DNA of 64,000 nucleotides from Candidatus Saccharimonadota bacterium (lineage in GTDB: Bacteria; Patescibacteriota; Saccharimonadia; Saccharimonadales; Saccharimonadaceae). Position numbers and translations under genes: made by a program. A model generated the notes under the pieces. The model did not search any database. It worked only from the letters and a program-made list of their open reading frames with translations, and had not been told where the DNA came from. The stretch covers positions 1 through 64,000 of the forward strand of contig WRLC01000004.1 of the NCBI GenBank assembly GCA_009777795.1. Reading direction: 5' to 3'. This document shows positions 1 to 63,223 of the stretch, piece by piece (the first letter of the stretch is position 1; every line of letters begins with the position of its first letter).

Positions 1-2
1 CT

Positions 3-1841
3 CCAGCCATCTTCAGCAATAGCATTGATACCAGCAACTGGGGCTTTGCCATCCCTAGCTCCCAAGTCCAAGGTATCACCAATGGTTTCGACTCTAGCTA
101 TAGTATCCTAGGCCCAGCTAATGCTAATAACACAGCTAAGTTCGCTTCCGTACCAAGTACAGCTACTCCTATCTCTTCCACTACAGCAGCTAACCCCACA
201 GCCGACAACTATGACTTCTTCTTTGCTGTCTCTTCTGGCTCCTACATGCCTACAGGCACCTATACAGGCAAAGTCATCATCTCTGCTCTAGGTAATGCTG
301 CCATGCCTCCTAGTCCCCTCTACTTACAGAACATCACGATTAATAACTGTCCTGTTGTCCGTACTATGGCTGTGGATGCTAGAGACAACCACACTTACTG
401 GGTGAGGAAGATTGACAATCTCTGCTGGATGGAGACTAACCTTGCTTATGCTGGTGGCACTTCTAATGGTGGGGTCAGTACTTTTGGCGACACTCTCGCC
501 ATGACCCAAGGCCGTTCTAACTCTCCCACTGCCATGCTCTATGATATCCCACCCGGCGCTAACCCAACTACAGCTCCAGCCGAACCCAGCACCAGCACTA
601 CCGGCACTGGCCAGTACGGCTACTTATACAACTGGTGTGCTGCCATGGGTGGCCAAGCCTCTGCTTGCCAGACCAGTACTGCCACTCAACCCGATACTAC
701 TATTAACGTCTGCCCATCCGGTTGGAGGCTACCGACAGGAGCTGCGACAACTGGAGAATTCACCTTGCTAAATAACAGCATAAATGGTGGCTCGACCACC
801 AGTCCGGCTGGACTATTCGCGCAGGGTTTGTACCTTTACGCCGGCGGCTTCAGTGGTGGCGCGTTCTACAATCAGGGCTCACGCGGCAATTATTGGTCTT
901 CTACAGTTGACAGCGCCGACACTGCCTTCAGACTGCTCTTCAACAGTTCCGAGGTCTATACTGCGACCGCGGGCAATAAGAGCTACGGCTACTCTGTCCG
1001 TTGCGTCAATGACTCTACCACAGCAGCCCAGCCAAGAGACTTACCTCCTCCAGCCCCAACCGGCTCCGACATCCAGCGTATCACCCTAGAGGGTACGCCC
1101 GGCAACTATTCTTGTCCCATCACCAGAACCCGAGTACGAGACGCTCGTGACGACTCTACTTATTGGGTGCGCCGCATTAATAGTACCCAATCTGGTGGTG
1201 GGGACCTTTGTTGGATGGAGACCAACCTAGCCTATGCTGGCGGAGGGGATAGTACTTATGGCGATGTCTTGCCAGCTTTTACTCAGGGCATTGGCGCCAA
1301 CATTGCATCCGGACAGGCCTGTTATGGCGATAATACAACAATGGCCGCCAACCCTGCCACCCTCTGTTATTGGAACCCTCCCGGCTCAAATATCACCACA
1401 GGTACTACTGACCCAAGCACCAGCACTACAGGTACAGGTCAATATGGACTGCTATATAGCTGGTGTACCACTATGGCCGGACAATCAGCCGCTTGCCAAA
1501 CTAGCACCGCCACTCAACCAGACCCAGATGTCAGTATCTGCCCGGCGAATTGGAGACTGCCAATCGGCGGCACTGGTGGTGAGTTTGTCCTCCTCAACAA
1601 TACCATCAATGGTGGCTCGACCACAAGCCCAAGCGGGCTCCTCACCAACAGCCTATACATGTACGCTGGCGGTTTCTTCGGCGGAGTACTCGGCAGTCCG
1701 GGCTCGGGTGGCTACTACTGGTCTTCTACCGTCTATAGTGCCGCCGCTGCATTTAGGCTGGGCTTCACCAGCTCCACTGCTGCTCCCGTGGACTCTAACG
1801 GTAAAGGCATCGGCTACTCTGTTCGGTGTGTTGCGCCCTAA
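3..1841 (+). CDS. FISUMP-domain (Fib_succ_major) secreted surface protein, two domains, 5' truncated by window edge
   Basis: Frame open from base 3; motifs DARDNxTYWVRKI..LCWMETNLAYAGG..YLYNWCAAMGG..CPSGWRLPTG..GEFTLLNN..YWSST..SVRCV occur twice. Confidence 0.9.
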   Translation, partial: PAIFSNSIDTSNWGFAIPSSQVQGITNGFDSSYSILGPANANNTAKFASVPSTATPISSTTAANPTADNYDFFFAVSSGSYMPTGTYTGKVIISALGNAAMPPSPLYLQNITINNCPVVRTMAVDARDNHTYWVRKIDNLCWMETNLAYAGGTSNGGVSTFGDTLAMTQGRSNSPTAMLYDIPPGANPTTAPAEPSTSTTGTGQYGYLYNWCAAMGGQASACQTSTATQPDTTINVCPSGWRLPTGAATTGEFTLLNNSINGGSTTSPAGLFAQGLYLYAGGFSGGAFYNQGSRGNYWSSTVDSADTAFRLLFNSSEVYTATAGNKSYGYSVRCVNDSTTAAQPRDLPPPAPTGSDIQRITLEGTPGNYSCPITRTRVRDARDDSTYWVRRINSTQSGGGDLCWMETNLAYAGGGDSTYGDVLPAFTQGIGANIASGQACYGDNTTMAANPATLCYWNPPGSNITTGTTDPSTSTTGTGQYGLLYSWCTTMAGQSAACQTSTATQPDPDVSICPANWRLPIGGTGGEFVLLNNTINGGSTTSPSGLLTNSLYMYAGGFFGGVLGSPGSGGYYWSSTVYSAAAAFRLGFTSSTAAPVDSNGKGIGYSVRCVAP

Positions 1842-1882
1842 CCCCAGCGATATTAGGCAAGTTGTGTGCTATAATATTAACT

Positions 1883-6462: not shown

Positions 6463-8000
6463 ATGAGCAAAGTAAAGACGTACCAAGTAGCTGGGGGGGG
6501 GGTTATTTAAGGCCTAATTTCCTCCAACTTACTCAAAGAGTAGCCACCGCGACCCTAAGTATCGCGGCTTTCTTAATCCTCTCCGCCACCATCACCAATC
6601 AATTCCACTCCACTCATGCCGACGGCCTCGAGAACACCTTCGCCATCAGCAATGCCGCTGGCAGTCTAAGTATCTCTTCCATCACCGACACCACCTGCGC
6701 CAACTACAATGTCGCTAACTCCACCCTCTCCCTCTCCACCACCGGCAACAGTATTGTCGCCGACTGTATCACCTACCTCGCCTCGACCGATAACGATTAT
6801 GGCTATACTCTAACCATCAACGGCCCCGCGACTGGCAACTTAAGCACTTCAGACAATCTCTCCCACATCACCTCCACCACCGGAATCATTATCGCTCCTG
6901 CTACCTTCGCCACCCAAACCAGTGGCGGCGCTTGGGGCTTTGCCATCCCAAGCGGCCAAATGCATGACGTACCTAATGGCTTTGACGCTACCTACCAAGT
7001 CCTCGGCTCAACCAATCGCACTAACACCGCCCGCTATGCCGCCGTCCCCACCTCTCCCACCATCTTCTCCCAGACCACTACCGCCAACACCACAGACGAC
7101 CAATACAACATCTTCTTCGCCGCCGCCATCGGCACTACCATGCCTACAGACGAATATTCCGGCACTATTGTTATCTCCGGCACTCTTAATGACGCTCCCA
7201 TCGCCCAAATTGGCGACTATCTCCAAACCATCACCGCCGCCAACTGTCCAACCGAACGCACCCGAGCCGTTGACGCACGCGACGGCAACACTTACTGGGT
7301 TCGCCGCATTGGTGACCTCTGCTGGATGGAAACTAATCTCGCCTATGCGGGTGGTGGCACTAATACCTACGGCGACGCACTTCCCACCTTCACTCTTGGT
7401 AACTCTCATACTACTTCCACACAAGCCTGCTATGGTAACAATGCGACAATGGCCGCTAATCCAACCGCCATGTGCTATTGGACACCGCTCAATGCTAACC
7501 CAACGTCCGGCACGACTGACCCTAGCTTAGCCACAGACGGCGGCATAGGTATCAACAACACTACCGCCGACACTAGACCCACCAGTACCAGAGCTCAATT
7601 TGGCTACATCTACAGTTGGTGCACCGCCATGGCCGGACAGTCCGCCGCCTGCCAAACAACCACCGCCACCCAACCAGACCCTAGCGTTAGTATCTGTCCA
7701 GCTGGTTGGCGCTTGCCAACTGGCCAAGCTACCACCGGTGAGTTCACCCTCCTCAACAATACACTCAACAGCGGCTCAACCTCCAGCCCAAGCGGCCTCT
7801 TTACCAACGGTCTTTATATGTACGCCGGTGCTTTTGTCGATGGCTCGTTCAACAATCAGGGCTCAAACAGCGGCTATTGGGCTTCTACTGTTGATGGTGT
7901 CAACACTGCCTTCAGACTGTACTTCACCAGCGCCGATGTCAATCCCGCGCGCTCGGCCAATAAGGGCTACGGCACCGCCGTCCGCTGCGTCGCCCCTTGA
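6463..8000 (+). CDS. FISUMP surface protein; out of frame with ATG 6463 because of a G10 tract (OFF as assembled)
   Basis: SD AAGGGAGATAAGGG then ATG 6463 reads MSKVKTYQVAGGGVI*; signal peptide/body frame GYLRPNFLQLTQRVATATLSIAAFLILSATI... continues to 8000. Confidence 0.85.
6493..6502 (+). repeat. Poly-G tract G10 (candidate contingency locus)
   Basis: Counted directly: gtagct + 10 G + ttattt. Confidence 0.95.
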
Positions 8001-8025
8001 CAACCCGCTTTTGCTTTGCTATAAT
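7997..8025 (+). promoter_or_regulatory. Consensus promoter TTGACA-17-TATAAT, -35 overlapping the upstream stop codon
   Basis: ccccTTGACAacccgcttttgctttgcTATAATgac. Confidence 0.85.
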
Positions 8026-11444: not shown

Positions 11445-12836
11445 ATGAGAACATTAGTAAAACGAGTAGCGAGTGCGGCAGCCGGAGCAGCAGCATTTGC
11501 AATCATAACAGGCGTGGTTGTGAGCGGCTTTCGCCCCATAAGTGCCGAAGAGGTACAAGTCAACACAACCGTGGGCGTGGGCTTCGTCCAAATATCCGAC
11601 CAAGCCTGCTCTGTCGATGGCCCCCAGCCCGCCTATGACGCCCAGAATAACGTCTTAGACATCGAGGTGCTCGCCGGTAGCATCGCCAGCAACTGCATTG
11701 GCCTAGCCGTGACCTCGTCTTACGAGTATGGCTACACCCTGACGCTTGAAGGCCCGCCAAACGGTGAGCTAACCATGGGGGGTGAGGTCTTCTCTAGCTG
11801 GAATAGTGAAATCCGAGATGTTTGGGATCTATCCGGAGGTGGTAGCTCGAGCTTATGGGGTTTCGCCATACCACACGGCCAGATGCATGGCATCGCCAAC
11901 AACTTTGACGCCGCCTACCAAGTCCTCGGTCCGTCCAATAAGAACTACACTGCCGTCTACGCCGGCGTCCCCGACACCGCCACACCGATTTCCATTACCG
12001 ACACCGCTAACACCACCGCCCACAACTACGATATCTTCTTCGCCATGGCACCCAAGTCCCTCGCACTGACCGGCACCTATTCCGGTATCGTGACCCTGAC
12101 CGCAGCGGGTAATCCGGTGTTCCCGTCCGACACCATGCCTGCCATGCAGACGATCACACTTTCCAACTGCCCGACAAGCCGAACAGTGGCTTTTGACGCC
12201 CGCGACGGTAATACCTATTGGGTCGGTATGTTTGGTAGCACTTGCTGGATGATGACTAACCTCGCTTACGCCGGCGGCGGCGATGACACCTATGGCGACA
12301 CTCTCGGTCTCTATGATGACTACATTAGCGACTTTCTCAGCCCCCAATACTTCGTCCCCGCCGACGCCAACCCAACCAGCGGCACCAGCATCCCCAGCTC
12401 CAATAACTTCGGTGGGCAACAGGACCCGCAATATGGCTACCTCTATAACTTCTGCGCCGCTATGGGCCACCAAGAAAACACTTGGGCTTGCTGGGGGTCA
12501 AGCGCCCCGCCCTACGTTTCAAATCCTGACCCAGACATTTCCGTCTGCCCAGCTGGTTGGCGGCTGCCAGCACCTAGCGAGTTCGACGGTATACCAGCGA
12601 CGCATGGTGGCAATCTTGGCTCATTCACATACGGTTGGACCGCCATGTACAGCGGCCTCTGGGAAGGTGGCGACTTCTCTGGACAAGGCGTTTTAGGCCT
12701 CTATTGGTCCTCGGAGGTGCTAAGCGGCCCGCCATACGCCTACTCCCTTTATCTTACTCATTCTCCAACGACTTGGAGTAGTGAAAATGCCGCAGATCGA
12801 GACTCTGGTCTCGCCGTCCGCTGCGTCGCCATGTAG
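11445..12836 (+). CDS. FISUMP surface protein without poly-G tract
   Basis: Own SD (GGTAAGGAG) and signal peptide MRTLVKRVASAAAGAAAFAIITGVVVS; FISUMP motifs, SGLAVRCVAM C-terminus. Confidence 0.85.
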   Translation: MRTLVKRVASAAAGAAAFAIITGVVVSGFRPISAEEVQVNTTVGVGFVQISDQACSVDGPQPAYDAQNNVLDIEVLAGSIASNCIGLAVTSSYEYGYTLTLEGPPNGELTMGGEVFSSWNSEIRDVWDLSGGGSSSLWGFAIPHGQMHGIANNFDAAYQVLGPSNKNYTAVYAGVPDTATPISITDTANTTAHNYDIFFAMAPKSLALTGTYSGIVTLTAAGNPVFPSDTMPAMQTITLSNCPTSRTVAFDARDGNTYWVGMFGSTCWMMTNLAYAGGGDDTYGDTLGLYDDYISDFLSPQYFVPADANPTSGTSIPSSNNFGGQQDPQYGYLYNFCAAMGHQENTWACWGSSAPPYVSNPDPDISVCPAGWRLPAPSEFDGIPATHGGNLGSFTYGWTAMYSGLWEGGDFSGQGVLGLYWSSEVLSGPPYAYSLYLTHSPTTWSSENAADRDSGLAVRCVAM

Positions 12837-27662: not shown

Positions 27663-30476
27663 CTACTCCCCTAGTTCCCTTAGCAGCCGCCCCAAGAGCT
27701 TTTGTTTTGCGCCCAAAACCGCCCGGCTCTCTTCCACCAACTCAGCCGGCGCCTTCGCCACATAGGCCTCATTCGCCAAACGCTTCTCAAGCTGCGCGAT
27801 TTCCTCTCGTACATCCTCCACTCGCGCCCGCAAATTCGCCCCGTACTTCTCAACTTCCTTCTCGCTTATATCCAGCCACGCCTTCCGACCCGAGTTCGCC
27901 AAACGCAGACCAATATGCTCCTTCTCTGCCAGCTGCTCCTCTTCCTTCTCCGAAAGCGGCCGCACCTCTTCCAGCTTCGCCAGACCCCGAATCAACTCCG
28001 CGTTTTCCTTTATCAACGGATCATCCCCGTAAATCAACCTGTCTTTCTGTTTATGCTCTGGGATATTCGCCTCCACAAACCGGATTTCCTCCACCAATTT
28101 GATAACCTGCTCAAACTCTTCTACCTTCTTTATGTCATATATAGCATAATCGCCCCATTTTTCGTCGGCCAACAGATCATCTGTCCAAGACAACGACTGC
28201 CAAATCGCCTCTGTCGCAAACGGCGCAAACGGGTGCAACAACTTCAAACAAAACTCCAACACATAGGCCAACATCTGCGGATTTTGTACCGTCTTTTCCG
28301 CCTCAATAAACCAATCCGCCACCTTCGTCCATGTCATCCCGTAAACCACCTCAATCGCCTCCGCAAACCGATACTCGCCCAGCAACCGCTCCACGTCCTC
28401 CCGCGCTTGGTTCAAACAGGACACCACCCAGTGTCCCGCTGGCGTCTTTAGCTCCACCTTGCTCAACGGCGTTTCCTCGTGCTCTCCCTGTAAATCTATA
28501 TCATCGCGGTCATTGTTCGCATCCTCGCCCAGCCACTGCTCGCCGTAATCCTCACCCACTGCATGCTGCACAAACCGCGCCATATTCCACAACTTATTAC
28601 AAAAGTTCCGCCCCGAGACCACCCCCGAACGCGAAAACGCCTGCGCCTGCCCTGCCGACCGATTCGCAATAATCCCCAGCCGAAACGCATCCGCCCCATA
28701 TTCCGCAATCACCTCCATCGGCGAAATCACATTCCCCTTGCTCTTACTCATCTTTTTGCCATGCTCATCCTGCACCATCCCATGGAAATAAACCTCCCGA
28801 AACGGCACCTCCTCCGTCGCATACAGCCCAAACATAATCATCTTCGCCACCCACGGCCGCAGCAAGTCCGTCCCACACTCCATCACACTATTCGGATAAT
28901 ACTTAGTCAAGGGTGATAGGTCTACGCCAGAATCACCTGCTGAGGAACTTTCGGAGGGCGGCAGCCCGAGAACGAGACGCGGTTCACCCGTGGCGACGGG
29001 ATGAACCGACGGCGTGTCCGAAGCAGGTGTTTTGGTGTAGACCGGGTAATCCGTCGTGATAAACGGCCACTGCCCCGACGAGAACCAAGTATCAAACGTA
29101 TCCTCATCCCGCTTATACTTCTTGCCATCAACCTCAATATACTCCTCTTCCACCCGCGTATCAAAAATCCAATCCTCCGGGTCGTCCACATTACAAAACG
29201 CCGGAATCGGAATCCCCCACGGTATCTGCCGGCTAATATTCCAGTCCCTAAGCTCATTGTAATAGGCTAGGAGCTCGTTTTTCTTGCCAGCTGGGTAAAA
29301 TACCACCTCGTTATCCATAAGCGCCTTAGAAGCCCTCTCCGCAAGCGGCCGCACTTTAATAAACCATTGATCCATCAACATCGGCTCAATCACCTCATCA
29401 CACTTATAGCAATGCGGCACCCGATTCACATAATCTTCATCCACGCGCACCAACAAATCCATTTCCTTCAGCGCCTTCACCACTTCTTTGCGCGCCTCCA
29501 ACACCGGCATATGCTCAAAACGCCCCGCCGCCGCTGTCATCCGCCCGTCCTTGTCGACCACCTGCACCACTGGCAAATTATGCCGCTCGGCCATCTCCCA
29601 GTCATTAAAATCATGCGCCGGCGTTATCTTCACCACCCCTGTCCCAAACGTCATATCCACCGCATCGTCCGCAATCACAATCACCTTAAACGGCCCGTTC
29701 ACCCCCTGCACCTCAATCTCTTGCCCAACATACTTCTTATATCGCTCGTCGTCCGGGTGCACCGCCACCGCCGTGTCGCCAAACTTCGTCTCCGGCCGCG
29801 TCGTCGCCAAAACAAACGGCCCATACTTCATATAGTAAAGCGGCGTCTTTTCCTCCCTGTAATTCACTTCAATATCGGCAAAACTCGTATGATGTTTCGT
29901 ACAGTAGTTAACCAGCTTCTTGCCCCGATAGATCAACCCATCCGCCCACAACTGCCGAAACGTCTCATAAACCGTCTTCACCACCTTCGGATCCAACGTG
30001 AACGTCATCGCGCTCCAATCGCACGAAATCCCCAGTTGCCGAATCTGAATCTCCATATTATACCGATTTTTCTGCACAAAATCCCACACCTGTTGGTACA
30101 GCTCATCCCGCGTAAAATCAAACCGCGTCTTCCCTATCTCCTCCAGCGCCCGCTCATAGACCACCCACGTCTCAAACCCCGCATGATCCGCCCCCGGCAA
30201 ATAGGCTACATCCCGCCCCAACAACCGGTAGTGCCGCGCCAAAACATCCTTCAAACTCATCTCAAAACCATGCCCAATATGCAAGTTCCCATTCGCGTTC
30301 GGCGGCGGCATCACCGTCGACCAAACCTCACGTGGCTGCACCCCCGGCTTACTCTTGTCGCCATCTATCTCCTGCTCATGCGCCCGACCCCCGGCCTTAA
30401 AGACCCCACTCGCTTCCCACAACGCATAAATCTTCGCCTCTGTCGCCTGCGGCTCGTAAACTTTATCAAATCTCAT
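27663..30476 (-). CDS. valS: Valyl-tRNA synthetase with an in-frame inserted palindromic element
   Basis: PPPNANGNLHIGHG, KMSKSKGN; unusual insert TPASDTPSVHPVATGEPRLVLGLPPSESSSAGDSGVDLSPLT before KYYPNSVMECGTDLLRPW. Confidence 0.95.
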   Translation of the reverse strand: MRFDKVYEPQATEAKIYALWEASGVFKAGGRAHEQEIDGDKSKPGVQPREVWSTVMPPPNANGNLHIGHGFEMSLKDVLARHYRLLGRDVAYLPGADHAGFETWVVYERALEEIGKTRFDFTRDELYQQVWDFVQKNRYNMEIQIRQLGISCDWSAMTFTLDPKVVKTVYETFRQLWADGLIYRGKKLVNYCTKHHTSFADIEVNYREEKTPLYYMKYGPFVLATTRPETKFGDTAVAVHPDDERYKKYVGQEIEVQGVNGPFKVIVIADDAVDMTFGTGVVKITPAHDFNDWEMAERHNLPVVQVVDKDGRMTAAAGRFEHMPVLEARKEVVKALKEMDLLVRVDEDYVNRVPHCYKCDEVIEPMLMDQWFIKVRPLAERASKALMDNEVVFYPAGKKNELLAYYNELRDWNISRQIPWGIPIPAFCNVDDPEDWIFDTRVEEEYIEVDGKKYKRDEDTFDTWFSSGQWPFITTDYPVYTKTPASDTPSVHPVATGEPRLVLGLPPSESSSAGDSGVDLSPLTKYYPNSVMECGTDLLRPWVAKMIMFGLYATEEVPFREVYFHGMVQDEHGKKMSKSKGNVISPMEVIAEYGADAFRLGIIANRSAGQAQAFSRSGVVSGRNFCNKLWNMARFVQHAVGEDYGEQWLGEDANNDRDDIDLQGEHEETPLSKVELKTPAGHWVVSCLNQAREDVERLLGEYRFAEAIEVVYGMTWTKVADWFIEAEKTVQNPQMLAYVLEFCLKLLHPFAPFATEAIWQSLSWTDDLLADEKWGDYAIYDIKKVEEFEQVIKLVEEIRFVEANIPEHKQKDRLIYGDDPLIKENAELIRGLAKLEEVRPLSEKEEEQLAEKEHIGLRLANSGRKAWLDISEKEVEKYGANLRARVEDVREEIAQLEKRLANEAYVAKAPAELVEESRAVLGAKQKLLGRLLRELGE
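28934..29029. repeat. Structured palindromic element, copy 1 (inside valS)
   Basis: CACCTGC...GCAGGTG terminal stem; internal GGGC-GGCA-GCCC and CGGTTCA-CCCGT-GGCG-ACGGG-a-TGAACCG hairpins; 96 bp. Confidence 0.7.
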
Positions 30477-31435: not shown

Positions 31436-31505
31436 ACTATCACCTCCTTCTGTCTGCAGATACGATAACCTTACTCTACCACATCTTTCCCAAAAGTCAA
31501 CTGGA

Positions 31506-31624
31506 CCCCCTCACTAACCGACCCCGAAGGACATTCGGACCGCGGCAGCGGGAGAGCGAGACGCGTCTGTCCTGTGGCGACAGGGTCAGACGACGTCGTG
31601 CCTGAGGGGTCGGTTATGAGGGGG
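31506..31624. repeat. Structured palindromic element, copy 2 (intergenic)
   Basis: CCCCCTCACTAACCGACCCC...GGGGTCGGTTATGAGGGGG terminal stem; CCGC-GGCA-GCGG and GTCTG..CCTGT-GGCG-ACAGG..CAGAC internal hairpins. Confidence 0.7.
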
Positions 31625-31627
31625 GGG

Positions 31628-31656
31628 TTGACTTTTTGGCTCGAGTGTGATATACT
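31628..31656 (+). promoter_or_regulatory. Promoter TTGACT-17-TATACT, -35 abutting a G8 tract (31620-31627)
   Basis: Upstream of the deacetylase gene. Confidence 0.75.
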
Positions 31657-31704: not shown

Positions 31705-32844
31705 ATGGCAAAAAAGTCAAGTAAACCAACCAAACCGACCAAACCAAGCTTTTCCTTGCGCAATTATCGCCACAAAACAGGGGCGCTTTGCCACCCCAAC
31801 GAACCCGAATGCGGCACTCGCGACCAACTTGACCACCAACCAAAGCATATCCGTGAGCAAATCTTTGACGACCAAGTCATCACCAAAAGCCAGCTCAAAG
31901 CCGAGCATCGGCAAGCTCTCAAAGGGCTCCTCACCTCTGATGAACCCACCGCTGGGGCCAAAAGACAACCTGACCTTACTACGCCCGGCTCTTTCAACGG
32001 CTATCGCATTCAGCGCAGCCATTTTACCATCAGCACTTTGGGCTTCGTCCTTATGCTTGGCGTTTTGCTCAGCCTTTCCATGGCTCGAAGCGGCCTCGCC
32101 GACTACCAAGTCTCCGACCCCGAGCAAGACCTTGCCGGCCTCGAAATCATCGTTCCTGACACCGGTAGCAACAGCTCCGACAACTCCGACCCCGACCCGG
32201 ACGACCAGCTTGACGTCCCCGACACTGGCGACAACGAGGCAGAGCAGGGGAGCCAAAAACTCATCGCTATCACCTTCGATGATGGCCCCAGCTCACTCAC
32301 CACTCCGCGCCTGCTCGATATCCTCACCCGCGAAAACGTCCCCGCCACCTTTTTTGTCCTCGGCAGCCTCGCCGCCCGCAACCCTCAAATCGTCTCCCGT
32401 GCCGCCGCCGAAGGCCACGCTGTCGGCAGCCATTCATGGGGCCACGCCAATTTGTCCCAAATGTCAAGCACAAGTATTATCGCCGACTTGACAAGAGCCA
32501 ACAATGCTATTCTCGCTGCCACAGGTAGCGCCCCCACACTCTTTCGCCCGCCTTATGGCGCCATTTCCAAAACCCTGCAGAACTCCGCTGGCCTACCCCT
32601 AGTACTCTGGTCGGTTGACACCCGCGACTGGCAAAGCAAAAACGTCGAGTCCATCTATAACATCGCCATCCAAAACGTCAAACCCGGCAGTATCATCCTC
32701 TTCCACGACATCTACCCCACCACTGTCGTCGCGGTCGAACGCCTCATCCCGGCCCTCAAACAGGCCGGCTACACCTTCGCTACCATCCCCGAACTCTTCG
32801 ACCAACCCCTCGAAAGCGGCCGCATCTACCGCGGCTCCTTCTAG
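31705..32844 (+). CDS. Polysaccharide deacetylase (NodB homology), membrane anchored
   Basis: LIAITFDDGPSSLTTPRLLDIL, HSWGHANLSQMS, FRPPYGAISKT, IILFHDIYPTTV. Confidence 0.93.
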   Translation: MAKKSSKPTKPTKPSFSLRNYRHKTGALCHPNEPECGTRDQLDHQPKHIREQIFDDQVITKSQLKAEHRQALKGLLTSDEPTAGAKRQPDLTTPGSFNGYRIQRSHFTISTLGFVLMLGVLLSLSMARSGLADYQVSDPEQDLAGLEIIVPDTGSNSSDNSDPDPDDQLDVPDTGDNEAEQGSQKLIAITFDDGPSSLTTPRLLDILTRENVPATFFVLGSLAARNPQIVSRAAAEGHAVGSHSWGHANLSQMSSTSIIADLTRANNAILAATGSAPTLFRPPYGAISKTLQNSAGLPLVLWSVDTRDWQSKNVESIYNIAIQNVKPGSIILFHDIYPTTVVAVERLIPALKQAGYTFATIPELFDQPLESGRIYRGSF

Positions 32845-41259: not shown

Positions 41260-43031
41260 ATGAGGATAAGGGCTACAAGCAGGGCAGAGACGCGCCAAAG
41301 AGTTGGGGGGGGGGTCTTTCTAGGCTGGCTGTTGCCGTACTTCTAGCCTCCACTTTTGCCATTTTCACCGGCCTCCTCGCCGACTCCTTCCGTCCCACTC
41401 GCGCCGACGACGGCCTTTCAAACACCATTCTTATCAACAACGTCATCGGCTCGCTCAGCCTCACCTCCCTCACCGATTCCACCTGCCCCAATTACGACGC
41501 CCCCAGCTCCACCCTCGAGTTCGCCAGCCGCGGCAATCGCATTGTTGCCGATTGTATCACCTACCTCATCTCTACCGACGGCGATTACGGCTACACCGCC
41601 ACCATCGTCGGCCCAGAAGACGCCAGCCTCTCGACCTCCGACGACCTCCACCACATCACCCCCATCTCTGGCACCATCGAGTCTCCCGCCACTTTCACCG
41701 CCCAAACCACCGGCGGCGCTTGGGGTTTCGCCATTCCCAGCTCCCAAGTCCACGGTCTCCCTACCGGCTTCGACTCTACCTACACCCGCCTTGACACCAC
41801 CAACACCACCAACACCGCCAAATACGCCGCCCTCCCCACCACTCCCACCACCTTCTCCCAAACCACTACCTCCACCACTACCGACGACATTTATAATATC
41901 TTTTTTGCCATTGCCGCCGGCCCCGCCATGCCCGCCGGCGAATATCAGGGCACCATTACCGTCTCCGCCATTGTCAACATGTCGCCACCTCCCTCTATCA
42001 GCAGCGTTTCACCCAGCACCGGCCTAACAACCGGTGGCACCACCATCACTATCAGCGGTCTTTATTTCTCCTCTGGCTCCAATAACTTAGTTCTCTCCGT
42101 CGCCCTTGGCGACTATCCTTGCACTGACATTACCGTCATCAATCCTACTACTCTTACCTGCATCACATCGCCCGCTAGCCCCGGCGCCCAAGATGTTGTC
42201 ATCACCACCATCAGCGGCACCGCCACTCTTGCCGCTGGCTTTACTTACCTAACTATCGCCCAAACTGGCGACCCAATCCAAACCATCACGGCCGTTAACT
42301 GCCCAACGACCAGAACACGAGCGACCGATGCTAGAGACGGCAATACTTACTGGGTGAGGAAGATACCCGGCACAGGTGCTGGTGGGACTGACCTTTGTTG
42401 GATGGAAACTAATCTAGCTTACGCTGGCGGCGGCTCTGACATTTACGGCGACACCTTACCTCCTTTTACCCAAGGCATTGGTGCCAATATCGCTAGTGGA
42501 CAGGCTTGCTATGGCGATGGCGTCTCCATGGCCGCTAATCCCACTGCTCGTTGCTACTGGAACCCAGTCGGCAGCAACGTAACTTCCGGCACGACCGACC
42601 CAAGCACCAGCACCAACGGCACAGGGCAATATGGCTACCTCTATAACTGGTGCACCGCCATGGCCGGACAGTCCGCCGCCTGCCAAACAACCACCGCCAC
42701 CCAACCAGACCCTAGCGTTAGTATCTGTCCATCTGGTTGGCGCTTACCTACTGGAGAGGCGACTACTGGAGAGTTTACACTACTTAATAATGCCATCAAT
42801 GGCGGCTCAACCTCCAGCTCAGCAGGCTTACTCACTAACGGCCTTTATATGAACGCCGGCGCCTTCTACAATGGCTCCTCCCTCGTTCAGGGCTCAGGCG
42901 GCTTCTATTGGTCTTCTACCGTTGCCAGTGTCTCCAGTGCCTTAAGCCTGTACTTCTACAGCTCCAATGTCGATCTTGCGAACGTGCGCAGCAAGGGTTA
43001 CGGCTTCTCCGTCCGCTGCGTCGCCCCCTAA
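41260..43031 (+). CDS. FISUMP surface protein with an IPT/TIG-like domain; OFF as assembled (G10)
   Basis: ATG 41260 reads MRIRATSRAETRQRVGGGVFLGWLLPYF*; body frame GLSRLAVAVLLASTFAIFTGLLAD...SVRCVAP runs to 43031; ISSVSPSTGLTTGGTTITISG = IPT/TIG-like. Confidence 0.8.
41305..41314 (+). repeat. Poly-G tract G10
   Basis: Counted directly. Confidence 0.95.
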
Positions 43032-43120
43032 CCCCTTGGCACACCTAAATACTTGCGCAAAGAAGAAACGCACGAGGATGGACTTTCGTACATTTCGTGC
43101 GCTTCGACACCACCATTATA

Positions 43121-43460
43121 TCAAACATCTTTCACTATGTCAATAATCTGGCGACGCTTGGTTATTAGCTTAACTTCTGATATTCCGTCGATAAACTTCA
43201 GTTTCGCCCTTATCTCACGTTCCACAGCTCTATCAGGTAGCCCCTTAATCCTATAAGTATCAAAGACAATTTTATCCGATTGCCTCTTCGCCCGCCGCAG
43301 ATTTTGCTCTACTATCGACATCTTCTTACCGTTTGGGGCTTTAAACTCCCACAGCTCCCCGTTTAGAAGGCAATCCGCAGAACTTTCGCCAAACCTTTCG
43401 CTCCTTTCGCGAAACTCAACATAAAACCCCAGCCTTATATCCCAGCCCTTCTCCTTTTTT
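43121..43460 (-). pseudogene. Remnant of a small PD-(D/E)XK nuclease ORF lacking an in-frame upstream ATG
   Basis: Open frame DKSKKEKGWDIRLGFYVEFRERSERFGESSADCLLNGELWEFKAPNGKKMSIVEQNLRRAKRQSDKIVFDTYRIKG..; only late ATG at 43321. Confidence 0.5.
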
Positions 43461-43525
43461 GACTTGTCTCATATCTCCATCCTATCACATCTGTCCCTCA
43501 AAACATATTACTCACGCTAAAACCC

Positions 43526-43554
43526 TTGCATCCCCAAACCGCCTATGCTAATAT
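43526..43554 (+). promoter_or_regulatory. Promoter TTGCAT-17-TAATAT of poly-G FISUMP gene
   Basis: Direct. Confidence 0.8.
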
Positions 43555-43590
43555 ATATAATATATAGTAAGGATAAGGGAGATAAGGGCG

Positions 43591-45215
43591 ATGATTAAAA
43601 TAAAAATGCACCAAAGAGTTGGGGGGGGGGTTATTCAAAGCTTGACTTAATCCAAATCGCCCGCCGCATATCCACCGCGACCCTAGCAGTCGCGGCTTTT
43701 TCAATCTTAAGCGCCCTTATCACCAATTCCTTCCATCCCACCCACGCCCAAGACACCCAAATAATCGCCAGCTTCGGCTCTGGCTCCCTTCAGCTAACCG
43801 ATAGCGCTTGTGCTCCCAGCCCCGACCAACCCGCCTACGACCCAGCCAATAACACCCTTAGTATGAGCGGCCTCGCTGGCAGCATCGTCAGCAACTGTAT
43901 GAATCTTACCGTTAGTATTAGCAGCACTTGGGGCTATACTTTGACTATCGCCGGGCCGGATGACGGCAACCTGACGCTCGCTAACCAAGCCATCACTGCC
44001 ACAACTGGCACTATTGAGACCCCCACAACCTTCGCCAGCCAAACCACTGGTGGTGCTTGGGGCTTCGCTATCCCAAGCGGCCAACTGCAGGGTACTGTCC
44101 TAACCGGTGGCGACCTGCCTAATGGCTTCGACTCTAGCTATAGCGTGCTCGGCCCCTCTAACCAGACCAATACCGCCAATTACGCCGCCGTCCCCACCAT
44201 CGCCACACCTGTTTCTACGACCGAGGCAGCTAGCAGCACTGCCGATAGCTACGACATCTTCTTTGCCGCCTCAGCTGGTGCCTATATGCCAACCGGCTCT
44301 TATACCGGTATCGTGACGATTTCGGCCTTTGGCAACGGTGCGCCAATGCCTACCGAAGCCCCTACCGGCGCCCCACTCCAACGCATCACGCTTGATGGTA
44401 CGCCCGGCAACTACTATTGCCCCACCACTCGCACTCGTGTCATTGACGCCCGCGACGGCAACACCTACTGGGTCCGTCGCATCAACGGCACCCAAGCCGG
44501 CGGCGGCGACCTTTGCTGGATGGAGACTAATCTTGCTTATGCTGGTGGAGGGAATAATGCTTATGGTGATGCTTTGCCTCCTTTTACCCAAGGCATTGGC
44601 GCCAATATCGCTAGCGGCCAAGCTTGCTATGGCAATAACGCAACAATGGCAGCCAATCCAACCACCATGTGCTATTGGATACCACTGAATGCCAACCCAA
44701 CGTCCGGCAGTACTGACCCATCCGGAGCAACTAATGGCGGGGTAGGCATCAACAATACTACAGCCGACACGAGGCCCACCAGCACCCGAGCTCAGTTCGG
44801 CTACCTCTACAGTTGGTGTACCGCAATGGCCGGGCAACCAGAGGCCTGCCAAATTACGGCAGCAACTCAACCAGACCCGAACATTAGTATTTGCCCAAGT
44901 GGTTGGAGACTACCTACAGGCACGGCAACAACTGGTGAATTCACATTATTAAATAACACAATTAATGGTGGGGCAACGAATAACCCAAACAGCAATCCGC
45001 CGGGCGTTGGGCTATTTGCGCAGGGCTTGTACCTTTACGCCGGATACTTCAACAATGGCTCGTTCTACAATCAGGGCTCAAACGGCCTCTATTGGTCTTC
45101 TACCGTTAACAGTGCCACCGATGCCTTCAGACTGACCTTCAGCAGCTCCAATGTCAATCCTGCGTTCGCGGGCAGTAAGGGCGCCGGCTTCTCTGTTCGC
45201 TGTGTCGCCCCCTAA
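43591..45215 (+). CDS. FISUMP surface protein; OFF as assembled (G10)
   Basis: ATG 43591 reads MIKIKMHQRVGGGVIQSLT*; body frame GYSKLDLIQIARRISTATLAVAAFSILSALITNSF... to 45215. Confidence 0.85.
43621..43630 (+). repeat. Poly-G tract G10
   Basis: Counted directly. Confidence 0.95.
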
Positions 45216-45229
45216 ACGAAAGGAACCTC

Positions 45230-53062: not shown

Positions 53063-55410
53063 ATGAATAAAGCATTCATTTACCAAGAGTTGGGGGGGGG
53101 GATTTAAAGCTTGATTTAATCCAAATCGCCCGCCGCATATCCACCGCGACCCTAGCAATCGCGGCTTTCTTAATCCTCTCCGCCACTATCGCTAACCAAC
53201 TCAAGCCCTCCAACGCCCAAGAAGTCATCATCGGCGCCAACCTTGGTATAGGCTCGGTCCAGTTAACCGACACCCCATGTTCCGTATCAGACCCTAGCCA
53301 ACCAGCCTATGACCTAGCTAACAGTACGCTAAACATCAATATCCTGACTAATGCTGTAGCCAGCAACTGTCTCGGTATCAGTGTCATCTCCACCAACGAA
53401 CTCGGCTACTCCATGACTATCCAAGGCCCTAGTACAGGTAATCTCACCCTCGCTAACCAAGTCATCACTAATACCACAGGTACTATCACTACTCCAGCCA
53501 TCTTCAGCAATAGCATTGATACCAGCAACTGGGGCTTTGCCATCCCTAGCTCCCAAGTCCAAGGTATCACCAATGGTTTCGACTCTAGCTATAGTATCCT
53601 AGGCCCAGCTAATGCTAACAACACAGCTAAGTTCGCTTCGGTACCAAGTACTGCTACTCCTATCTCTTCCACTACAGCAGCTAACCCCACAGCCGACAAC
53701 TACGACTTCTTCTTTGCTGTCTCTTCTGGCTCCTACATGCCTACAGGCACCTATACAGGCAAAGTCATCATCTCTGCCTTAGGTAATGCTGCCATGCCTC
53801 CTAGTCCTCTCTACTTACAAGCTATTAATATCAATAACTGTCCTGTTGTCCGTACTATGGCTGTAGATGCTAGGGATAACCATACTTACTGGGTGAGGAA
53901 GATAACTGGCACTGGTGCTGGTGGGACTGACTTATGTTGGATGGAGACCAACCTTGCTTATGCGGGTGGAGGCACCAACACCTACGGTGATACTATCAAT
54001 GGCATGACACTGGGCACAGGCGCCAACATCGCATCAGGCCAAGCTTGCTATGGTGATAATGCGACAATGAACACCAACGGCCAAGGCTGTTTCTGGGAGC
54101 CTACAGGTAGCAATATCACAGCAGGTGCAACCGAACCCAGCACCAGCACTACCGGCACTGGCCAGTACGGCTACTTATATAACTGGTGTGCTGCCATGGG
54201 CGGCCAAGCCTCTGCCTGCCAGACCAGTACTGCCACTCAACCCGATACCACTATCAATGTCTGCCCAGCTGGTTGGAGGCTGCCGACAGGCCCAGCGACA
54301 ACTGGAGAGTTCACATTGCTCAACAACTTAATCAACAGCGGCTCAACTTCTAGCCCTTCTGGGCTCTTCAATAATGGCCTTTACATGTATGCCGGTACAT
54401 TCTACAATGGCTCGTTCAGCGATCAGGGCTCAGGCGGCTACTATTGGTCTTCTACTGTTAGTAGCGCCGCCAATGCCTTCAGACTGTACTTCACCAGCTC
54501 CAATGTCGCTCCTGCGAGCGCGAACATTAAGGGCTACGGCCGCTCTGTTCGTTGTGTCAATGACTCGATTACGGCAGCCGAGCCATTGCCTCCACCTGTG
54601 CCAGCTCCCACCGGCTCCGACATCCAGCGTATCACCCTAGAGGGTACGCCCGGCAACTATTCTTGTCCCATCACCAGAACCCGAGTACGAGACGCTCGTG
54701 ACGGCTCTACTTATTGGGTGCGCCGCATTAATAGTACCCAATCTGGTGGTGGGGACCTTTGTTGGATGGAGACCAACCTAGCATACAAAGGCGGTGGTAC
54801 CAACACTTACGGCGATACCATGACTATCACTGCAGGTACAAGTATTGCCGGCTCATTAAACGCTAACTCAACTGGGTCATCATCAGTCTGCTATGGTAAT
54901 AATGACTCTATGAACACCAACGGCCAAGGCTGCTTCTGGGAGCCAACTGGTAGCAATATTACAGTTGGCGCAACTAACCCTTCAACCAGCACCACTGGCA
55001 CTGGCCAATACGGGGTACTCTATAACTGGTGTGCCGCAATGGGCAACCAATCAGCTGCCTGCCAGACAGGCGCTGCCACCCAACCCGATACTACTATTAA
55101 CGTCTGCCCAAGCGGTTGGAGGCTCCCTACAGGCCAAGCTACAACTGGCGAGTTCACCCTACTTAACAACACGCTTAACAGCGGAAGCACAAGCAGCCCT
55201 ACAGGCCTCTTCACTAACGGCCTTTACATGTACGCCGGCGCCTTCAACTATGGCTCGTTCGGCAATCAGGGCTCATACGGCTACTATTGGTCTTCTACTG
55301 TTAGTAGCACCACCACTGCTTTCAGTCTGTACTTCAGCAGCTCCAGTGTCAGTCCTGCGGCCACGGTCAATAAGGGCGCCGGCTTCTCTGTTCGCTGTGT
55401 TGCGCCCTAG
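53063..55410 (+). CDS. FISUMP surface protein, two domains; OFF as assembled (G10)
   Basis: ATG 53063 reads MNKAFIYQELGGGI*; body frame DLKLDLIQIARRISTATLAIAAFLILSATIANQ... to 55410. Confidence 0.85.
53092..53101 (+). repeat. Poly-G tract G10
   Basis: Counted directly. Confidence 0.95.
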
Positions 55411-55417
55411 CCGAAAG

Positions 55418-60918: not shown

Positions 60919-63223
60919 ATGAGTCAAAGCAAAATAATCAGTGCGGCAGGGCAAAAGCCAATGTCGCACAATAAAAAGTCGGGGGGGGGGGTCTTTAGAT
61001 GACAGCCCATCCAGCAAGTTCCTAGAGCTCACACATAGAATCAGTCTCGCGACCCTAGCAGTTGCGGGATTTGTTGTTGCCAGCGGGGCAATTGTCGGCA
61101 ACATCCGCTTATCTAGAGCCCAAGACACCAAAGTTGTCGCTAGCTTCGGTTCGGGCTCGCTCCAGCTCACCGACAGCCCTTGCGGTGTCAGCCCCAACCA
61201 GCCCGCCTATGACTCGGCCAACAACATTCTAAGCCTCTATGGCTTGGCCGGCAGTATCGTCAGCAACTGTCTAAATATCACTGCCGACACCAACAGTACT
61301 TGGGGCTATACCCTAACTATCGCCGGCCCGAATCACGGCAACCTAACCTTAGCCAACGTCGCCCTCGACCCGATTAGCGGCACCATCGCGTCGCCTACCG
61401 TCTTTGCCTCCCAGTCGACTGGCGGGGCTTGGGGCTTCGCTATCCCCAGCGACCAGATGCTAGGAGTCGTCAATGGTTTTGATGCCAACTATGACGTCCT
61501 AGCGCCCACCAACACAACCAACACCGCCAATTACGCCGCCGTCCCCACGACCGCCACTCCTTTCTCCATCACTACCGAAGCTAACGTCGCACCCGACAGC
61601 TACGACATCTTCTTTGCTGCGGCCGCTGGCGCCTATATGCCTACTGGTTCCTACACTGGCGTCATTACTATCTCTGGCGTAGGTAATGCCAAACCGGTCC
61701 CGGGCACCACCGGCTCCTTTATACAAGACATCACAGCCGATAATTGCCCTTCGGAACGGACGCGGGTTGTCGACGCCCGTGATGACAGAACTTATTGGGT
61801 CCGCAAAATCCCCGGCACCGGTGCGGGCGGTACCGAACTCTGCTGGATGGAGACTAACTTAGCCTATGCCGGGGGCGGAGATAATACTTATGGTGATGTC
61901 AAGGCACTTAATCGCGGTGCGTCTAACAACCCGAGCGCCGCGCTCTATGAAGTGCCAATTGGCGGCAACCCGACTAGCGGCACTACCGACCCCTCGACCA
62001 GCACCAACGGAACGGGGCAATATGGCTACTTATATAACTGGTGCGCCGCCATGGGCGGACAACCCGATGCCTGCCAGATAGACGATGCCTTGCAACCCGA
62101 TCCTAACATCAGTATCTGCCCGGCAGGCTGGAGGTTGCCGACTGGTGAAGCAATAACCGGAGAGTTCACCTTACTCAATGACACTATTAACGGAGGGATA
62201 ACCTCTAACACACTTGGCCTCTTCACCAATGGCCTTTACATGTACGCTGGCGGCTTCACCAGCAGCACACTCTTCAATCAGGGCTCAAACGGCAACTATT
62301 GGTCTTCCACCATCAGCACTTCCACCACCGTCTTTGCTCTTTACTTTGTCAGCTTCAATGTCGTACCATCAATCTCACTCACCAAGGACTCCGGCTATTC
62401 TGTTCGCTGCGTTTCCGACCCCCTACCACTCGGCGAAGCACCCGCCGGGGCAGACATGCAACGCATCACACTTGCCGGCGCGCCCGGGCGCTACTCTTGC
62501 CCAACTACTCGAACCCTAGCTGTTGATGCTAGGGACGACAGCACTTACTGGGTCCGCAAGATTGGCGACCTCTGCTGGATGGAAACCAACTTGGCCTATG
62601 CAGGGGGTGGAGACAATACCTACGGCGACGCCCTCCCCGCCTTCACCCTCGGCAACTCGCACACTGGCAGCAGCGACCCATGCTACGGCAATAACGCCAC
62701 CATGGCAGATAACCCAACCACACGCTGCTACTGGGCCCATGCCGATGCCAATCCTACCAGCATTACCACCGAACCACCGGTCAGCTCCTCCGGCTCTCCA
62801 CAGTATGGCTACCTCTACAACTGGTGTACCGCCATGGCCAACCAACCCGAAGCCTGCCAGATTACTACTGCTAGCCAGCCAAACCAATCAGTTAATGGCG
62901 CTACCCTCTACAACATCTGCCCTAGCGGTTGGCGGCTACCGACAGGGGAGGCTACAACCGGCGAGCTAGCAATTTTGAACGGCCAAATAAATAGCGGATC
63001 GAGCGGGTCGCCCTCTGGCTTGCTTTATTATGGCCTGCTTCAACGGGGAGGCAGTTGGACCAATGGCGCGTTTGCGAACCAAGGCAGCTATGGTTATTAT
63101 ATGTCTTCTACAGCATCTACCAACAACCAATCCTTCGGTATGCATTTCACCGACATCATGACCGTGACTGGGTATAGCTTATCCAAGGGGACTGGCCTGT
63201 CTGTCCGCTGCGTTAACTCTTAA
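60919..63223 (+). CDS. FISUMP surface protein, two domains; OFF from ATG 60919 (G11)
   Basis: ATG 60919 frame ends ..SGGGVFR* at TGA 61000; body frame is shared only by a GTG at 60941 lacking an obvious SD. Confidence 0.85.
60981..60991 (+). repeat. Poly-G tract G11
   Basis: Counted directly. Confidence 0.95.

Follow-up and report, generated by a model that had tools for sequence, protein, structure and literature searches.

Until now, protein-coding palindromes had been described chiefly in Rickettsia and Wolbachia; ORF fusions also arise from ERIC and RU elements. To our knowledge, the mobility of protein-coding palindromes has so far gone unexplained. The Rickettsia palindromic elements (RPEs) are 105-146 bp long, palindromic, and found both between and inside genes, where they lie in frame within conserved proteins (PMC2229807, PMC10969869). 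The targets of the Yersinia element YPAL (RU-2) span or adjoin regions of dyad symmetry (PMC2229807).

Here we describe a family of folded mobile elements of about 120 bases in gut and oral parasitic Saccharibacteria, previously undescribed in the open-access literature, where we found no report of such elements in these bacteria; in Rfam no family scored above its gathering threshold. Like the RPEs, these elements fall mostly within that size range (115-127 nt), are both intergenic and intragenic, and are fused in frame into conserved proteins. They differ from them in phylum, in a core that forms a three-way junction with two hairpins and coupled loops, in the use of both orientations and four common frames, and in their termini, where arms that are particular to each copy and derive in part from the host replace a fixed repeat. 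Since taxon and terminal arms differ, we do not class them as RPEs, the RPE families having been compared by description. With YPAL they share a small palindromic form and targets with dyad symmetry, such as terminators; however, Rfam searches detected no family common to them and YPAL or ERIC, and the elements described here as a rule insert into housekeeping ORFs. As with the REP/RAYT systems, hairpins are spread without a gene of their own, but these are ~120 nt long and branched.

The window, by which we mean the whole 64-kb stretch analyzed, contains two copies, one inserted in valS and the other intergenic (Table 1). The preliminary description of this DNA had delimited the valS copy as a 96-bp element bounded by CACCTGC/GCAGGTG. 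Both motifs are in place (28934-28940 and 29023-29029), but the palindrome is longer, measuring 125 nt from GGTCTAC to GTAGACC, and covariance model R2 matches it at 28918-29041 (E 1.1e-26). The two hairpins reported in it are present, and the fold is far better than those of dinucleotide shuffles (z = -5.3). Its proposed homology to a copy near 31506 was borne out, although the extent of the latter had to be redrawn as in Table 1: model R1 matches that copy at 31503-31625 (E 1.1e-26), it likewise folds far better than shuffled sequence, the window has two occurrences of the motif CGAGACG-N-GTGGCGAC as against 0.00 in shuffles, and the sequence differences between the copies are paired changes. 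The 3' arm of the intergenic copy continues into a promoter-like TTGACT-17-TATACT (31628-31656) ahead of the gene at 31705, and the -35 half of this sequence is mirrored in the 5' arm. Elsewhere in the window (1-1848, 6975-8007, 11898-12569, 41763-45222, 53492-55417 and 61118-62964) are many diverged tandem and dispersed paralogues with TWY..WMETNLAYAGG-type repeat domains, which resemble Fib_succ_major paralogous domains and are probably surface or variable proteins.

Table 1. Coordinates of the two element copies and the valS host gene in the 64-kb window
Feature	Position	Strand	Basis
Whole palindromic element in valS, folding strand	28919-29043	+	Sequence, covariance model, absence in relatives
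5' outer arm (P1) GGTCTACGCCAGAATCACCTGCT	28919-28941	+	Partner is 29022-29043
P3b hairpin GGGC-GGCA-GCCC	28956-28967	+	Helix 98.7% paired in 101 copies
P4 hairpin CGCGGTTCA-CCCGT-GGCG-ACGGG-A-TGAACCG-A-CG	28978-29011	+	Covariation
3' outer arm (P1) AGCAGGTGTTTTGGTGTAGACC	29022-29043	+	ValS alignment
valS host gene, 937 aa	27663-30476	-	ORF list, alignment to relatives
Second copy, intergenic, extended outer inverted repeat CCAAAAGTCAAC/GTTGACTTTTTGG	31490-31639	+	Sequence

A pattern search of the window's own genome (G000, 559 kb) yielded seven strong copies, which can be aligned along 123 columns without a gap and in which paired changes are seen. A first covariance model built from these seven counts 18 copies in the window genome and, among 61 related genomes, detects the element in 8, every one of them a member of the same family. 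A second, built from 69 matches, extended them to 202 of the 394 genomes and 12 of the 61 genera of this Saccharibacteria family, one large genus being nearly saturated. Sister families of the same order gave no copies in the 24 genomes searched. The taxonomic range is not the CPR at large, as had been supposed, but one family of Saccharibacteria. Matches to the model are found in ORFs and outside them. Among named genomes, the exact core pattern occurs mainly in Candidatus Saccharibacteria, Nanosyncoccus alces among them, from termites and the guts of ruminants; there were few matches to it in other phyla, and those that were scored were not copies. Carriage by phages was considered and rejected: three viral contigs fit the core pattern, none of them convincing as a copy (best E 0.025). 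One copy (L026, in the region G000:C5:28227-28347) is nested in an older element of the family within a long VWA-domain ORF. Five others (L058, L060, L063, L065 and L066) have a P3b or P4 loop enlarged by ~30-40 nt of hairpin sequence; L063 and L066 have almost the same one, which is perhaps a second, smaller mobile hairpin.

The element has a branched core of ~80 nt, which a long terminal stem closes off, and folds as a three-way junction made of this stem (P1), a short P2, the hairpin arm P3/P3b, and P4. In an alignment of 101 distinct copies fitted to the model, double-sided changes occur in 41 of 44 base pairs and 93% of the cells are paired; covariation is 0.77, compared with 0.20 in shuffled alignments and at most 0.12 with slid partners, and the ungapped seven-copy set agrees. 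The P3b stem alternates between GGGC, CCGC, GGCT and GCGC among copies with pairing kept, while P4 covaries in 11 of its 13 pairs and is 95.3% paired. The loop types are coupled, P3b GGCA going with P4 GSCG and the UACG type with RACG, with few exceptions; the GGCA and GGCG loops may be in contact with each other. On the modelled strand G-U pairs outnumber A-C pairs, both over all stems (301 versus 76) and in P1, with the register set by Watson-Crick pairs alone (46 versus 12), and the excess is equal for sense and antisense insertions. As the bias follows the strand of the element in both orientations, it points to the element itself as a folded single strand and not to a role in host mRNA, and suggests a single-stranded intermediate of either RNA or ssDNA.

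The deep structural conservation, together with several intergenic copies positioned at terminators or promoters (including window 31628-31656), could also be read as the mark of a selected functional RNA, such as a regulatory leader, attenuator or terminator, and not of a selfish element. We hold this to be extremely improbable, given that the wobble bias tracks the element strand and not the mRNA strand, that most copies lie in ORFs, where they take both orientations and more than one frame, that relatives are without copies at the same places, and that positions are largely random and without conserved gene context. The conserved fold with variable sequence and the strand asymmetry are also reminiscent of integron attC sites, which would imply folded ssDNA sites captured by a tyrosine recombinase; this is very improbable, as no cassette arrays or carried genes were seen between copies, and single dispersed ORF insertions are unlike the behavior of attC sites.

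Most copies are situated within ORFs, and both orientations and all frames are used, four of the latter being common. The host genes, identified by Pfam and in some cases named by eye from the translation, include obgE, trxB, recJ, valS, dnaX, tilS (two copies), leuS, femAB, a Mur ligase, a UvrD-like helicase (two), ileS, der, topA, uvrC, tatD, alaS, ligA, tgt, uvrB, queA, iscS and mnmA (three copies in one G399 gene). The family has been mobile over evolutionary time. Empty sites were found in relatives for valS and 11 further genes of the window genome, and also for ligA, tgt, uvrB, mnmA, iscS, alaS and queA, and three intergenic empty sites are available at the nucleotide level. The genes with empty sites include recJ, tilS and der. 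The valS segment is not conserved in all relatives: G009 has TDY-LDSGELARFYP without it, in G001 there is no more than a short linker unrelated to it, the inserts of G003 and G014 are likewise unrelated, and G005 has a degenerate element copy of its own at the same spot. The G003 gene (L107) is a 1133-aa ORF with several more E/G/A/D-rich insertions that do not match the element model, which may be decayed elements or another family. The obgE copies of G000 and G002 are in opposite orientations, so the same linker was struck independently. Where related genomes carry several insertions at the same site, these are not independent data points.

The reading frame was assessed, with no open frame presupposed, in 44 copies flanked on both sides by sequence that matches one relative protein: in 43 the frame is unchanged and open, the one exception being at a gene start. 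Stop codons are not strongly avoided in the element itself (279 versus 298 expected). The net gain where the native linker is short is about 36-40 codons, and the net insertion is shorter than the palindrome. Judging from the open frame, in-frame insertion would add 35-40 residues to flexible loops or linkers. The preliminary proposal, that small palindromic elements of a new family had entered genes in frame as the RPEs of Rickettsia do, was thus supported by every check, namely the covariance-model search, the empty sites in relatives and the frame of the ORF insertions.

The fixed terminal repeats which that description assumed gave way to arms specific to each copy. P1 scores 15.8 when each arm is paired with its own partner and 2.4 with those of others; the own partner is the best in 78 of 87 copies, and no fixed terminal sequence is common to all of them. 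The copy in G312 (L112:18585-18707) has as one of its arms GAGAACCGACAGGCACTCTGAG, the 3'-terminal sequence of the host gene, which is also present in the empty site of G214; the other arm, the reverse complement of the first, is absent there. Two other intergenic copies sit within the loops of native terminators. In the window's valS, the outer end of the 3' arm codes for the PVY of ValS, which recurs in G001 (TDYPVY); the residues encoded by the 5' outer arm are not common to relatives. More generally, arm-encoded residues are nearer to the host's native residues than are the arms of other copies (mean z 0.86, n=36, and 0.48, n=35). In an orthologous copy common to G312 and G380, both arms have changed together. 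Which side carries the native arm differs from copy to copy; a strict polarity, with it always on the element's 3' side, fits the first cases and fails for tilS, ileS and the Mur ligase. No direct target duplication was evident at the three nucleotide-level empty sites, where identity is only ~80%.

Certain arms do recur. Three copies in the window genome have a common 17-bp arm, CCTCACTAACCGACCC, each with a shorter private outer repeat in addition; a weak GCAA..CTGG motif recurs among copies, and one locus (L018) has arms of two different types. Such element-borne sequence means that host origin covers only part of each stem. The common arms and the recurring motif would be expected of an ordinary MITE with element-borne terminal inverted repeats, moved by an unseen IS transposase, whose arms diverged by compensatory drift. 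We regard such an origin as unlikely: the common terminal repeat of a MITE is lacking across the 87 copies, where arms pair with their own partners, the G312 arm is host gene sequence, net insertions fall short of the palindrome, and the Y1 transposase is absent from all 19 genomes searched for it, in which respect the element also differs from REP/RAYT.

We posit that this is probably a non-autonomous mobile element, which has spread within one Saccharibacteria family and is copied as a folded strand into hairpin-prone sites. The mobile form would be the modelled strand, folded and single-stranded, either as RNA or as ssDNA. Its targets would be terminator loops and other sites where a short inverted repeat is already present, with copying folding back on the host strand. 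Such fold-back copying would yield a closing stem made partly of host sequence and its inverted copy, and not a fixed terminal repeat. Alternatively, the perfect arms might arise by quasipalindrome correction after insertion, with the same outcome as fold-back synthesis. Genic copies would persist if the frame is kept, and the mobilizing enzyme may be supplied by the host. We advance more tentatively, as a possibility short of an even chance, the wider notion that a structured single strand builds its closing stem from the target, with inverted replacing direct duplication, without an element-specific enzyme, and thereby reshapes essential proteins across the family.

The RNA-like fold, the UACG-type tetraloops and the one-strand G-U bias might instead reflect element RNA that is reverse-transcribed at the 3' end of the target, for instance by the enzyme of a diversity-generating retroelement, the copy then snapping back. 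RVT_1 matches do occur in G000, G002 and G003, but this route is quite improbable, for RVT_1 is absent from the copy-bearing G004 (100% complete, at least 10 copies) and G001 (98% complete). Reverse transcriptase as the mover was rejected, there being no consistent co-occurrence. The two RVT_1 genes of the window's own genome (G000:C2:109828-110427 and C1:121208-121879) are possibly diversity-generating retroelements.

The Saccharibacteria family adds a second, very abundant case of protein-coding palindromes, in epibionts with reduced genomes, and its hundreds of copies of differing age provide filled and empty sites in quantity. The copy-specific, partly host-derived arms and the one-strand wobble bias together furnish a clue that makes the mechanism testable. 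The extra residues in ValS, RecJ, TilS, Der and other Saccharibacteria proteins are insertions and not ancestral features; accordingly, in annotation the 35-40 extra residues in proteins of these bacteria should be counted as such.
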